A DNA stretch of 64,000 nt from Pelosinus sp. UFO1. GTDB lineage: Bacteria > Bacillota > Negativicutes > DSM-13327. Below the pieces are notes generated by a model. That model did no database searches. It was not told the origin of the DNA and was given only the letters and a program-made list of their open reading frames with translations. Numbering within the stretch: position 1 is the first letter of the stretch; each line of letters begins with the position of its first letter. Shown here piece by piece: positions 1,216 through 61,059 of this stretch. The position numbers and the translations under genes were made by a program. The stretch covers positions 1,044,001 to 1,108,000 of the forward strand of contig NZ_CP008852.1 in the NCBI RefSeq assembly GCF_000725345.1, written 5' to 3'.

Positions 1216-1713
1216 ATGTCAAGAAATAATAAAGAATTAGAAGGTATAACCCTTTTGGGAAATCAAAATGTTAAGTATGAATATTCATATACTCCGGAGG
1301 TCTTGGAGGTATTTGAAAATAAGCATATTGAAAATGACTACTGGGTAAAGTTTAATTGTCCTGAATTTACTACCCTTTGTCCCATGACAGGACAACCTGA
1401 CTTTGCCACTATTTATATAAAATATATTCCCGATGTCAAAATGGTTGAGAGTAAGTCATTAAAATTATATTTACTTAGTTTCCGTAACCAAGGTGACTTT
1501 CATGAAGACGTTGTTAATATTATTATGAAGGATCTTATAAGACTAATGCAGCCCCGCTATATTGAAGTCTGGGGGAAGTTCCTGCCACGTGGTGGTATAT
1601 CCATTGACCCTTATTGCAACTATGGCAAACCTGATACTAAATACCAAAGCCTGGCTTGGCATAGAATGCAGGAAAACGATTTGCACTCTTTAGAGAAGAT
1701 TGATAATCGATAA
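1216..1713 (+). CDS. queF: NADPH-dependent 7-cyano-7-deazaguanine reductase QueF
   Basis: QueF reduces preQ0 to preQ1 in queuosine biosynthesis, in the cytoplasm. At 165 residues it is the short, unimodular type. The family signature is clear: the catalytic-cysteine region F-N-C-P-E-F, then C-P-M-T-G-Q-P-D-F, and the E-S-K-S-L-K-L-Y substrate/NADPH motif followed by F-R-N-Q-G-D-F-H-E. The ATG is preceded by AAAGGAG. It lies 16 bases after the HD-GYP gene, with no preQ1 riboswitch between them, and is followed by a terminator and a repeat element. No other queuosine gene is in the window. Confidence 0.95.
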
Positions 1714-1714
1714 T

Positions 1715-1763
1715 AAAAAAGCGGATTTAAGACAAGTTGTAGTTGTTTTAAATTCGCTTTTTT
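1715..1763 (+). terminator. Rho-independent terminator after queF
   Basis: An imperfect inverted repeat (AAAAAGCGGATTTAA against TTTAAATTCGCTTTT) is followed by a T-tract ending at 1763. The structured repeat begins at the next base. Confidence 0.75.
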
Positions 1764-1861
1764 ACGGAAGCAGAAAGTATGACACTTCCTTGATTCCAAG
1801 TAAGAACGACTAAGGCTTCTGCCTGCGTCTGAGGACTTGGCCTAAGCCAAGTCTTTTCTTA
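1764..1861 (+). repeat. terminator-associated structured repeat, copy 1
   Basis: This is one of four copies of a roughly 98-base intergenic element. It starts with an imperfect hairpin (GGAAGCAGAAAGT paired with ACTTCCTTGATTCC). A domain closed by TAAGAA/TTCTTA follows, containing a small hairpin AGGC-TTCT-GCCT and a strong hairpin GACTTGGC-CTAA-GCCAAGTC. It begins directly at the end of the queF terminator T-tract and has queF's orientation. I know no name for the family. Confidence 0.85.
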
Positions 1862-4881: not shown

Positions 4882-4911
4882 ATGTAATCTGTATTTTCAT
4901 TCAGATTACAT
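4882..4911. promoter_or_regulatory. inverted repeat upstream of the amidohydrolase
   Basis: ATGTAATCTG and CAGATTACAT form perfect 10-base arms separated by 10 bases. They lie downstream of a TATAAT at 4866-4871 and upstream of the gene start. This could be an operator or a 5'-leader hairpin. The rest of 4773-4948 is AT-rich with nothing else recognisable; there is no clear terminator for copA. Confidence 0.4.
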
Positions 4912-4948
4912 GAAATTATCTTTGGTGATAGATAGGTGGTGGCGATAC

Positions 4949-6316
4949 GTGTTTGATATAGTAATTAAAAATGGGATTCTGATTGACCCAGAATCCCTTA
5001 CCAGAACCAATGGAAATATAGGCATGAAAAATGGGAAAATAGCCTCCATCACTAAAGAAGAAATTCATGGTGTCCAAGAATTTGATGCTTATGGTAAGAT
5101 GGTTTGTCCAGGCTTTATTGATATTCATGGGCATATTGATTGGGATGATTATTGTGGGGAACTTTCCCTGCGCCAAGGAATTACTACTACTGTAGGTGGT
5201 AACTGCGGATTGAGTCCTTTGGATATAAATGCTTTCTTTGCAGCGCAAGAAAAGCAAGGTTTTATCGTCAATCAAGCAGAGCTTATTGGACATTCTATTA
5301 GTTTAAGGGCTGAGGTGGGGGCAACAGATCCTCTAGTGCCTGCGACATCTGAGCAGTTAACTCGTATGGAATATCTAGTTGAAAAAGCATTCGAGGAGGG
5401 AGCTTGCGGTTTATCCTTAGGTTTAGCCTATGCGCCAGGGAGCTCTAACGCCGAAATTATTAATCTAAGCAAAATTGCTGCTAGGTATGGAAGAATTGTA
5501 GCTGTGGACACACGGATGATTACAGGAATCGATATGTATTCTCTAGTGGAAGTGATCTCGATTGCACGCCAAACGGGAGCCCGCATTCAGGTATCTCATT
5601 TGGTTTACCAATATGGAACAGGTGTCATGAATGAAGCTCTCGCAGTCATTAATCGGGCAAGGGCCGATGGGCTGGATATACGTTTTGACAGTGGTATGTA
5701 TACCCAGTGGGCAACTCATATCGGTGCGGTACTATTTAGTGAAGAATATATGGAGTTGAACGGGTGGAAACTAGAGGATATTTTGGTGATTACGGGTAAG
5801 TACAATGGTGAACGCTTGACGATGGATATTTATCAGGAACTTCGTACCCATTATCCCCATACAGCAGTAGTGGTGTTTACAGGCATTGAAGAGGAAATTT
5901 ATATGGCCCTTCATCATCCTTATGCCATGCCCTCCACAGATACAGGGACATATCTGCCTGGTGAGGGACATCCTCAAATTGCAGGCAGTTTCCCCCGTTA
6001 TTTTAAAAAAATGGTGGCAGAACGTTATGAATTAACCATCATGGAGGCCGTTCGTAAGGCGACATTACTGCCAGCAGAGACGTTAGGCTTTAATACAAAA
6101 GGCCGCCTGCGAGAAGGAATGGATGGGGATATTGTAGTATTTGATATGCAAACTATTACGGATAAGGCAGACTTTGGACTGCCTAATGCTTATCCTGAGG
6201 GAATTGATTATGTTTTTCTCAATGGTAAGCTAGCCCTTGCCAAGGGAGAAATTATGGATAGACAGGCTGGAAAAGCAGTGCGTTGTACCAAACCTGTTTA
6301 TGACTATCAGATATAG
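4949..6316 (+). CDS. D-aminoacylase-like amidohydrolase
   Basis: This is an amidohydrolase-superfamily enzyme closest to N-acyl-D-amino-acid deacylases and dihydroorotase-like proteins. Those enzymes cleave acyl-amide bonds with a metal in a TIM barrel. It opens with the family's F-D-I-V-I-K-N-G strand, has the metal-binding H-G-H-I-D after C-P-G-F-I-D, a T-T-x-x-G-G-N-C-G segment, and a C-terminal R-E-G-M-D-G-D-I-V-V-F-D motif. I choose the GTG at 4949 (455 residues), nine bases after AGGTGG, because the reading frame upstream of it is not family-like. The substrate cannot be told. It is a single-gene unit ending in a terminator plus repeat copy 2. Confidence 0.8.
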   Translation: MFDIVIKNGILIDPESLTRTNGNIGMKNGKIASITKEEIHGVQEFDAYGKMVCPGFIDIHGHIDWDDYCGELSLRQGITTTVGGNCGLSPLDINAFFAAQEKQGFIVNQAELIGHSISLRAEVGATDPLVPATSEQLTRMEYLVEKAFEEGACGLSLGLAYAPGSSNAEIINLSKIAARYGRIVAVDTRMITGIDMYSLVEVISIARQTGARIQVSHLVYQYGTGVMNEALAVINRARADGLDIRFDSGMYTQWATHIGAVLFSEEYMELNGWKLEDILVITGKYNGERLTMDIYQELRTHYPHTAVVVFTGIEEEIYMALHHPYAMPSTDTGTYLPGEGHPQIAGSFPRYFKKMVAERYELTIMEAVRKATLLPAETLGFNTKGRLREGMDGDIVVFDMQTITDKADFGLPNAYPEGIDYVFLNGKLALAKGEIMDRQAGKAVRCTKPVYDYQI

Positions 6317-6360: not shown

Positions 6361-6403
6361 AAGACGCAAAAGAGTAAACAGCTTACTCTTTTGCGTCTTT
6401 TTT
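6361..6403 (+). terminator. Rho-independent terminator after the amidohydrolase
   Basis: A perfect stem of AAGACGCAAAAGAGTAA against TTACTCTTTTGCGTCTT with a 5-base loop is followed by T6. Confidence 0.9.
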
Positions 6404-6500
6404 ACGGAATCAGAAAGTATAAAATTTCTTGATTCCAAGTAAGAACGACTAAGGCTTCTGCCTGCGTCTGAGGACTTGGCACAAGCCAAGTCTTTTCTTA
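6404..6500 (+). repeat. terminator-associated structured repeat, copy 2
   Basis: It has the same architecture as the copy at 1764: the GGAATCA-type hairpin, then a domain closed by TAAGAA/TTCTTA with the AGGC/GCCT and GACTTGGC/GCCAAGTC hairpins. It begins at the last T of the preceding terminator and runs in the direction of the upstream gene. The loop of the last hairpin is ACAA here instead of CTAA. Confidence 0.85.
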
Positions 6501-16173: not shown

Positions 16174-16224
16174 AAAAATCGCTAACTACAGGCTATTGAT
16201 AGCTAAGTGGTCAGCGATTTTTTT
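16174..16224 (+). terminator. Rho-independent terminator after the ABC ATPase
   Basis: AAAAATCGCT pairs with AGCGATTTTTTT across a second inner stem (GCTAT/ATAGC). The T-tract runs straight into the repeat that starts at 16225. Confidence 0.8.
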
Positions 16225-16322
16225 ACGGAATCAGAAAGTATAACACTTTCTTGATTCCAAGTAAGAACGACTACGGCTTCTACCTGCGTCTGAGGACTTG
16301 GCACAAGCCAAGTCTTTTCTTA
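16225..16322 (+). repeat. terminator-associated structured repeat, copy 3
   Basis: Third copy. Its first hairpin is the best paired (GGAATCA-GAAAGT with ACTTTC-T-TGATTCC). It carries two small differences in the middle (CTACGGCTTCTACCT instead of CTAAGGCTTCTGCCT) that weaken the small hairpin. It again abuts the upstream terminator, in the same orientation. The 215 bases after it, up to the next gene, hold no clear feature. Confidence 0.85.
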
Positions 16323-25593: not shown

Positions 25594-25632
25594 CTTATGG
25601 TATCAGAATTTATAAGTTTCTAGTTAAAAAGA

Positions 25633-25751
25633 TTGAACCACAAAGACACAATGCCGCTATCGCGGCACACAAAGAAGATAGGAATGAAATGGATAGAACC
25701 CCTTTGTGACCTTTGTGTCTTTGTGGTTCAAAAAGGACGCGTAGCGTTTTT
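25633..25751. repeat. long inverted-repeat element
   Basis: Perfect 17-base arms TTGAACCACAAAGACAC (25633-25649) and its complement (25715-25731) enclose a GC hairpin GCCGC-TATC-GCGGC and further CACAAAG/CTTTGTG motifs. ACGC-GTA-GCGT plus T5 follows. It looks like a REP/MITE-type palindromic repeat lodged between the mannitol terminator and the next operon. It has no coding capacity. Confidence 0.6.
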
Positions 25752-25880
25752 CTTAGTGTAGCTCCATCATTTCTCCACAAATGACTTGTATAATATTATA
25801 TGAGATGCACATTCTGTAATTGTAAGGTATGATTGTTCTAATGATATTTTAGTGCGTAAGTGAGAATAAGAGGTGATGGT

Positions 25881-30264: not shown

Positions 30265-30271
30265 CTATATT

Positions 30272-30679
30272 TTATTCGTAGTCGTTATTAACATCAGATT
30301 TAGCAGTCAATGTGCCATATTGTTTCTTACTTTGTTGTGTTTTGCTACTAGTTGCTTGGTTTTGATTAGAACTAGAAGAATAATCGTTATTGGCGTCGGA
30401 TAGGGCAGTCATTGTACCGTATTGACTCATACTTTGCTGTGTTTGATTGCTGCTGCTAGTTGCTTGGTTTTGGTTAGAAGTACTAGAAGAATAGTCATTA
30501 TTAGCGTCTGACAAAGCAGTCATTGTACCAAATTTATTTTTACTTTGTTGGGTTTGACTGCTAGTTGCCTGGTTTTGAGTAGTAGAGCTAGAATAGTCAT
30601 TATTGGCATCTGAAGTAGCAGTTAGCGTACCAAATTGATTTTTGCTTGCAGATAATTTGCTTTGTTTATTTTTTTCCAT
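30272..30679 (-). CDS. repeat protein resembling gamma-type small acid-soluble spore protein
   Basis: This 135-residue, highly polar protein carries four repeats of the form K/S-x-[FY]-G-T-[LM]-T-A-x-S-D-[AV]-N-N-D-Y, joined by Ser/Thr/Gln/Asn linkers such as N-Q-A-T-S-S and Q-Q-S-K. It has no cysteine, tryptophan or hydrophobic core. In layout it is like Bacillus gamma-SASP SspE, whose repeats hold G-Q-F-G-T-E-F-A-S-E-T with Gln/Asn-rich linkers. The match is in pattern, not close identity, so a spore amino-acid store is inference. AAGGGGG precedes the ATG, and a terminator follows. Confidence 0.6.
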   Translation of the reverse strand: MEKNKQSKLSASKNQFGTLTATSDANNDYSSSTTQNQATSSQTQQSKNKFGTMTALSDANNDYSSSTSNQNQATSSSNQTQQSMSQYGTMTALSDANNDYSSSSNQNQATSSKTQQSKKQYGTLTAKSDVNNDYE

Positions 30680-37014: not shown

Positions 37015-37112
37015 TAAGAAAAGACTTGGCTTAGGCCAAGTCTTAAGACGCAGGCTGAAGCCTTAGTCGTTCTTACTTGGAATCAAGGAAGTGTTATACT
37101 TTCTGATTCCGC
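37015..37112 (-). repeat. terminator-associated structured repeat, copy 4 (inverted)
   Basis: Fourth copy, on the minus strand, with all three hairpins preserved. GGCTTCAGCC replaces GGCTTCTGCC, and the linker between the last two stems is TAA instead of GAG. It again starts at the T-tract of a terminator, this time that of the kinase gene on the minus strand, so orientation relative to the upstream gene is kept. Confidence 0.85.
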
Positions 37113-37142
37113 AAAAAGCCCATATCCTTTTAGGATATGGGC
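37113..37142 (-). terminator. terminator of the sensor kinase gene
   Basis: GCCCATATCC and GGATATGGGC arms with T5 on the minus strand. The hairpin overlaps the last codons of the kinase gene. Confidence 0.85.
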
Positions 37143-60490: not shown

Positions 60491-61059
60491 ATTAGCCTCC
60501 TGTGTTCAAATTATATATGTCATATTATCAGTGAAGCAAATGCTATGTATCTGATCCTATAAACAAAAAAGTGTAATAATATGAAATACCAAAGGTGGTC
60601 AGATAAAGAAGACTTGATTCAGATGGACTTTTAACTCCATCTGAATCTTAGCCCTTCTTATCCAGGGACTTAGCCGCTCTTAACTCCCACTTATATAAGT
60701 GATCCTTGGGTCCGGAGACCCTTAGAGCGAACTTATTTCGAGTTTACAGACTGTTTACCTGGCCGTCAAGGGCAGGGAATTACAGACTGTTAACGAGATG
60801 AAGATGGGAGTCTTAGAGCGGTTTAGTCATCGGATAAAAACCTGGCCATAATGTGGTAAATCATTCTTCAAAAGATATAAATGTCCTGCCGATAAAATCC
60901 ATTTAAGTTGAAATAATGGAAATATTCGCAAAAAAGTATAAGAATGATAATTCATATAAACTTCTGAAGGCAGGCCATTTCATTCTAGGTATTGTGTATA
61001 CATAATACCATAATATGTGTTATAATGTCGCTTACTATTTATTATTAGAGGTGTGATAT
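60491..61059. other. intergenic region of 569 bases with a large structured element
   Basis: From 60612 to about 60840 lies a folded, partly repeated stretch (described among the findings): a 12-base perfect hairpin (60616-60627/60636-60647), then long arms CCGCTCTTAACTCCCA (60674-60689) and TGGGAGTCTTAGAGCGG (60805-60821) that pair with a small bulge. ATP- or purine-riboswitch signatures are not seen. The rest is AT-rich promoter sequence of the two divergent genes. Confidence 0.65.

Follow-up and report, generated by a model that had tools for sequence, protein, structure and literature searches.

Palindrome-associated transposable elements (PATEs) are defined in PMC3119063 as short relatives of the IS200/IS605 insertion sequences, and in the accessible text of PMC3119063 and PMC7290912 they are described from Haloquadratum, with one PATE-like sequence in Halanaerobium. 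Recent PATE insertions are reported in Haloquadratum although nearly all of its IS200-type genes are broken (PMC3119063). In the case of IS608 and ISDra2, a strong preference for the base at position +1 of the insertion site is described (PMC5934647). The repeat analysed here, element A, is a mobile element, and its homing to intrinsic terminators at a fixed spacing, with a right end that looks like its own target, is well supported.

The window, i.e., the whole stretch of 64,000 nucleotides that was analysed, corresponds to G000:C1:1044001-1108000, where G000 is the genome of the window and C1 its single contig of 5,115,410 bases. All four copies of the repeat that the earlier note had placed in the window are present. 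Positions of these copies, their target terminators and the upstream genes in the window are as follows; G006 is a related genome used for comparison.

1216-1713, plus strand: open reading frame of a queF-like gene, named from reading its translation
1719-1763, plus strand: terminator hairpin and T-tract after the queF-like gene, target of copy 1 (read directly)
1765-1861 (G000:C1:1045765-1045861), plus strand: element A copy 1, 97 nt; the orthologous place in G006 has no copy
4910-6316, plus strand: open reading frame of an amidohydrolase-like gene, named from reading
6361-6403, plus strand: terminator after the amidohydrolase-like gene, target of copy 2 (read directly)
6405-6500, plus strand: element A copy 2, 96 nt; G006 also has a copy
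16174-16224, plus strand: terminator hairpin and T-tract, target of copy 3 (read directly)
16226-16322, plus strand: element A copy 3, 97 nt; G006 has a bare terminator ending in TTTTTTTA, then diverged sequence
37015-37111, minus strand: element A copy 4, 97 nt, with G as the left target base; G006 also has a copy
37113-37142, minus strand: terminator after a kinase gene (name given in the earlier note), target of copy 4 (read directly)

On direct reading, a hairpin and a T-tract precede every one of the four copies, and the genes upstream of them are unrelated to one another. The unit of element A is 97 nt long, extends from CGGAATC to TTTTCTTA and codes for no protein. The base that precedes it, which had originally been taken as the first base of each copy (A, or G in copy 4), belongs to the target DNA, as indicated by the clean empty sites described below. 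Ungapped full-length pairs of the window copies are 91-94% identical; copy 2, which has a one-base indel, is 81% identical to copy 1 when compared without gaps and 92% identical to copy 4 over 77 nt. No Rfam family matched the window at the gathering score, and at a lax threshold there were sub-threshold matches only, none of them credible.

A covariance model built from 41 copies gave 130 matches to element A in the 5.1 Mb of G000, a few of them weak or shortened. The underlying alignment (A2) consists of 41 rows hand-picked for diversity from 83 distinct copies, some of which came from a search with an exact core sequence. When up to three mismatches are allowed, a 32-base core pattern occurs in G000 60 times on the plus strand and 56 times on the minus strand, and its reversed control was not found at all. 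Of 126 copies, 98 measure 97 nt, 25 measure 91-102 nt and three measure 60 nt. By DNA similarity, matches are present in 19 of 40 genomes (G000 itself counted), some of them to the right-end hairpin only. Element A is numerous in G006, G003, G008 and G009, occurs in few copies in G001, G002, G004, G005 and G007, and is present as traces in the class; named records that contain the core include those of Sporomusa acidovorans and of a Pelosinus MAG. Plasmid and phage collections gave no match to element A at E 1e-5. Near the presumed replication terminus of G000, a region of about 0.8 Mb (C1, 1.75-2.56 Mb) contains two weak matches only (52-57 bits), as compared with the 130 matches over 5.1 Mb.

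Comparison of G000 with G006, which is roughly 95% identical to it, reveals the precision of insertion. In the 1.2 Mb of G006 that was compared, 39 of the 130 copies could be placed: 24 of these sites are filled in G006, 11 were labelled empty, and of the four others three have a copy in G006 too and the fourth has a copy of family C there. The sites labelled empty are not uniform. At site 232024, G006 has a decayed copy; at site 236379, G000 has a remnant and G006 a full copy; sites 58538 and 4960350 are off by 3-4 nt, and several others are messy. Four pairs of empty and filled sites are clean, namely, TTTGTTA/TTTTCC and TTTTTTTG/ATGTAC (the slash marks the insertion point) between G000 and G006, as well as GTTTTA/TTTTTA (CTGTTTTA/TTTTTATAC) and TTCTAG/TATCACT, both of which are filled in G006. 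In each of them the filled site equals the empty site plus CGGAATC...TTTTCTTA, save for point differences in the flanks. Two pairs are decisive: the base at the left is G while the right end is still A, which excludes a target duplication, and in the clean cases there is neither duplication nor loss of the target. A TTA target duplication, which would fit some of the empty sites, and a shared core dinucleotide, which is an IS110-like trait, are both ruled out by the two sites with G at the left.

The same precision is seen where elements lie within or beside one another. One terminator (site 257515) carries element A in G000 and family C in G006. Tandem copies of element A with an exact shared border are present in G000 (1511232/1511329), in G006 (C3 61123/61220) and in G008 (L329). 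Copies of A and C adjoin the right ends of other copies exactly, with both A-then-C and C-then-A nesting, and one copy of family B lies behind a right end resembling that of the short form A'. The new hairpin laid down by element A can receive the next copy. A separate difference between the two genomes concerns tandem repeats at 30266-30647 of the window, with a period of about 102-111 bases, which are probably coding and whose unit number seems to be different in G006.

Flanks were counted for the 126 copies with a readable left end, four of the 130 being left out. The left flank is a T-tract, with A (93/126) or G (28/126) at position -1, and the base at +1 is T in 103 of 124 copies, A in 20 and C in one. 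By our own simple stem-plus-tail score, a terminator-like hairpin is present upstream of 99 of the 126 copies (79%) at a threshold of 18, as compared with 21% of 673 intergenic TTTTTR sites, which come from 626 kb chosen around the copies, 43% of the 188 of these sites that lie close to a gene end, and 3% when flanks were shuffled. The T-tract alone is therefore insufficient to explain the choice of target. Additionally, insertion occurred 7-9 nt downstream of the final G/C of the stem at 75 of the 96 sites with a score of at least 20 (78%), as compared with 27% of 797 TTTR sites behind such hairpins (p = 4e-22), a background drawn from G000 segments with coding DNA included. The right end of element A is itself a terminator-like hairpin, the last C of which lies 8 nt before the end. 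In the relatives, score 18 is reached by 25 of 35 copies in G006, 27 of 33 in G008, five of seven in G009 and neither of two in G003.

The reading of the repeat as an element that targets terminators, offered in the earlier note, is backed by the empty sites, the hairpin enrichment, the fixed spacing and the nesting, and the searches made gave no match to the ends of a known transposon. The accompanying statement that the repeat always begins at a terminator does not extend to the whole genome. A terminator precedes all four window copies but not each copy of the genome, where 27 of 126 are below score 18. The nearest upstream gene lies on the same strand in the case of 97 of the 121 copies with a gene call and on the other strand in the case of 24, an orientation that is based on simple ORF calls and not on annotation. 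Copies away from terminators or in random orientation, which had been named as possible counter-evidence, thus amount to about one-fifth without a recognisable terminator and about one-fifth that do not follow the direction of the upstream gene. Co-orientation with replication, of interest because of the lagging-strand template bias of IS200/IS605 elements, is seen for 105 of 130 copies and for 364 of 453 genes (without the 4.5 Mb bin, and with replication arms set by us), and no replication-strand excess beyond gene orientation is seen. An insertion site past a gene-end terminator should do little harm.

Element A has several relatives in these genomes. A short form of about 76 nt, A', is common in G008. 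Its middle mostly has CAAG where A has TAAG, and CTATG or CTTTG takes the place of CTTA at the end, with certain exceptions. The two motifs go together: TAAG occurs with CTTA or CTTTA ends and CAAG with CTATG or CTTTG, the exceptions being L086 and L322. The difference in left-base preference between TAAG and CAAG copies is weak (p = 0.022; A in 13 of 27 CAAG copies), and the TAAG motif sits away from the hairpin foot. Families C and B are represented in the window by the following copies.

25598-25755, plus strand: element C, 158 nt, with a middle unlike that of A, directly after a hairpin and TTTTCTTA
60603-60833, minus strand: element B, 231 nt, after TTTTTAT, ending in TTCTTTAT

The right end of family C consists of a hairpin and TTTTTCTTA, its first bases are like those of A (CGGAATCAGAA) in one other copy, and its copies lie behind terminators or behind the right ends of A. 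The window copy of C has an inner CCACAAAGACAC...GTGTCTTTGTGG hairpin, which is found alone elsewhere in the genome too. Members of family B (L334-L349) are 127 or about 230 nt long, have hairpin ends and terminate in TTTAT. They have TAAG..CGACTAAG in common with A, and the window copy contains GATAAG and GCTAAG in place of the GTAAG and GACTAAG of A. The target of B is TTAT in 16 of 16 G000 copies, a set fetched by one exact pattern, and clean empty sites of this family show no duplication. Seven of the 16 copies lie behind terminator-like hairpins and seven of the 16 are co-oriented with replication; the right end of B is located 13 nt past its own hairpin.

A search for a mobilising enzyme gave one Y1 match in G000, of the REP-associated type, at 74.7 of 80 bits, i.e., just below the curated cut-off, and no TnpB, RVT_1 or Y2 match in this genome. 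The G000 Y1 gene is preceded by a different motif, and no copy of element A was found within the 3.3 kb around it. Y2 matches, three in number, were found in G009 only. RVT_1 gave no match in G000, G006, G003 and G008, two in G009, and 7 and 14 in G002 and G004, respectively, where element A is present in few copies. Y1 matches are also present in G006, and no Y1 match was found in G008 (89% complete), which is rich in A'. Y1 genes of similar length occur in genomes with few copies, and only one of the 30 Y1 loci scanned has a copy of element A, about 0.9 kb beyond the gene. Of the four strong Y1 matches in the relatives, two are intact tnpA genes of IS200 type, in G004 (L303) and G009 (L100). 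A terminator-like hairpin immediately precedes each of the two elements that contain them (scores 38 and 18, with borders determined by eye), and the ends of these elements differ, by eye, from those of A. Y1 enzymes with a taste for terminator targets seem to exist in this bacterial family (n = 2).

Neither an enzyme of element A nor an autonomous copy with A ends was found, and there was no longer copy among the places listed. In the case of solo left ends in G000, the best 100 of 115 places all fall within the 130 model matches. In the case of solo right ends, five of the best 100 of 119 places fall outside these matches, namely, a place after rpsO, a plain terminator-like hairpin, a deletion derivative followed by C and two decayed remnants. 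Large insertion differences between G000 and G006 comprise 32 events, and no ORF in those of at least 400 bases is transposase-like by eye.

The earlier note had also considered a small RNA or an mRNA 3' tail. The fold of element A and the drift of its copies bear on such a functional RNA, in which selection would maintain a small RNA or a stabilising mRNA tail behind each terminator. For each of the four window copies, a fold as good was reached by none of 200 shuffles. The predicted folds of three of the four copies contain hairpin 1 and the TAAGAA/TTCTTA domain with its AGGC/GCCT and GACTTGGC/GCCAAGTC stems, as had been described for all of them; in copy 1, which has a base change in hairpin 1, the best predicted fold opens this hairpin, and the AGGC stem of copy 3 is weaker. 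Compensatory changes, the lack of which had been named as an argument against the repeat, do exist: between lineages both sides changed in 10 of 35 pairs, seven of them in hairpin 1, with a left stem of ATTATC/GATAAT in Sporomusa vs. GGAATC/GATTCC in G000. None of 500 shuffles reached 10 such pairs, though relatedness can inflate this figure, and 93.1% of cells are paired, as compared with 35-52% when slid by 1-3 columns. This covariation comes mostly from hairpin 1 and from few lineages, and it suggests that the fold matters to element A itself. Together with the stable fold and the terminator-like hairpin at the end, it speaks for a functional RNA. However, the differences that seemed to spare the stems do not indicate selected folds. 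Among the 98 copies with a length of exactly 97 nt, changes are about three times as frequent at unpaired as at paired sites (0.060 vs. 0.018 per site), mostly owing to three unpaired sites of very high variability; once the four most variable sites are set aside, changes are seen in 98 of 69x98 paired cells and 42 of 24x98 unpaired cells (p = 0.24). There is no preference for G-U among single changes in pairs, as G-U and A-C were found 32 and 30 times, respectively, without the four variable sites, and A-C prevails (57 vs. 33) with all sites. The 24 copies common to G006 are 96.6% identical, which is close to the 96.3% of their right flanks (left flanks, 92.3%). These change rates and identities indicate that the drift of single copies is much like that of neutral DNA, which is evidence against a small RNA or mRNA tail under selection. 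The differences in presence between close relatives, the unrelated upstream genes in the window and the lack of a promoter-like site within copy 1, the one copy scanned, point the same way. We consider a functional RNA very improbable. Selection seems to favour the movement of source copies rather than to maintain each copy in place.

Among the explanations that involve movement is a coupling of insertion to transcription termination. At intrinsic terminators, RNA 3' ends form at roughly the distance at which element A inserts. The RNA 3' end or a stalled polymerase would then mark the target, and the element would move via an RNA whose 3' end is set by the element's own terminator. The insertion point (7-9 nt past the stem) and the 3' end of the element (8 nt) indeed coincide with RNA release, and the orientation is mostly that of the gene; this explanation is nevertheless unlikely, given that RVT_1 matches are lacking in four of the genomes rich in copies, that no promoter-like site was found within copy 1, the sole copy scanned, that G-U is not preferred, and that family B differs in the position of its right end, in its TTAT target and in the proportion of copies behind terminator-like hairpins. 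We likewise give little credence to an enzyme class new to transposition for which the terminator hairpin (or else the polymerase or the RNA 3' end at termination) would serve as a ruler for joining the element at the RNA-release point; if this were true, every copy would both use and renew a terminator. The RAYT-like gene of G000, the Y1 matches of G006 and the high number of intergenic hairpin repeats would be consistent with REP/BIME-type repeats moved by a RAYT encoded in G000. This is quite unlikely, however, since the consensus on inspection lacks GT[AG]G at the hairpin foot, a different motif precedes the G000 gene, a copy accompanies just one of the 30 Y1 loci scanned, Y1 genes of similar length occur in low-copy genomes, and G008 has no Y1 match. 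As to group IIC introns, described in PMC4424553 as users of the same target class, it is hardly credible that element A is a degenerate or trans-mobilised relic of them: 97 nt is far too short for a ribozyme, and RVT_1 matches are more numerous in the low-copy G002 and G004 than in any genome rich in copies.

We favour, with a probability of about 0.6, element A being a non-autonomous element of PATE type, bounded by hairpins on both sides and lacking inverted terminal repeats. Its membership in IS200/IS605 is likely, and the mobilising enzyme may have been lost from G000. In the mechanism that we propose for such a PATE-type element, an enzyme supplied elsewhere would act on element A as a single strand: the transposase would bind the right-end hairpin in single-stranded DNA and cut at a fixed distance 3' of it, after which a circle would be made. 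Any terminator hairpin with a T-tract would be accepted as a look-alike right end, and the outcome would be a low-harm landing site behind genes, renewed by each insertion. The guide layout of IS608, with the guide at the hairpin foot, has no simple match in element A. A candidate guide is the TAAG of the mid-element, which can pair with its own end (CTTA) and with the target (TTTA/TTTG).

In the accessible part of the literature searched, with most subscription papers outside its scope, no DNA transposon that homes to terminators was found to be reported. Element A shows that homing to intrinsic terminators, here at a spacing that was measured, is not confined to introns. It is a DNA element and bears a look-alike of the target that it uses, which offers a simple route to high copy number without breaking genes or operons. 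The approximately 100 natural hairpin and T-tract targets per rich genome, each with a known outcome, make the choice of folded targets by single-strand transposases directly testable. In addition, a common intergenic repeat of Pelosinus, Sporomusa and their relatives, without an Rfam match here, gains an explanation for annotation.

Several known systems resemble element A in part. It has neither the inverted terminal repeats nor the usual target duplication of MITEs, and the purifying selection on structure within copies that would mark a small RNA gene is not seen in it. The SPRITE repeat of Streptococcus pneumoniae is likewise a small repeat enriched near gene 3' ends, but it is itself described as terminator-like and not as inserted behind terminators, and no comparable empty sites are reported in the accessible text of PMC3049150. 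Like the REP/BIME repeats with RAYT, as described in PMC8266576 and PMC6006769, element A is a high-copy, intergenic, non-autonomous hairpin sequence; it differs from them by the absence of a GT[AG]G guide and a flanking RAYT and by its insertion behind terminators. Group IIC introns, according to PMC4424553, also use intrinsic terminators as insertion sites, but element A has 97 nt, is devoid of ribozyme and RT, and its genome G000 has no RVT_1 match. With IS200/IS605 elements, such as IS608 and ISDra2 in the description of PMC5934647, it shares insertion 3' of a short left-flank sequence, hairpin ends and the +1 preference. It differs from them by the lack of tnpA and tnpB, no Y1 TnpA being encoded in its 97 nt, and by a target that comprises a longer T-tract and a hairpin. 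Element A differs from PATEs in that it targets an intrinsic-terminator-like hairpin at a fixed spacing, resides in a bacterial host, probably Pelosinus or a near relative, and has ends unmatched to an IS605-type transposon. Otherwise the agreement with PATEs, as they are described in the sources above, is extensive. Both are short, non-coding and present in high copy number, do not duplicate their target, and are found within or beside other elements. In element A there are no terminal inverted repeats (on inspection, the complement of its end, TAAGAAAA, is unlike its start, CGGAATC), palindromes lie near both ends (hairpin 1 on the left side and GACTTGGC/GCCAAGTC on the right), four clean pairs of sites, two of them decisive, show no target duplication, and a length of 97 nt in most copies is too short for a transposase. 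The state of the genome is also similar to that of Haloquadratum, where mobile palindromic elements persist with nearly no intact IS200-type gene.
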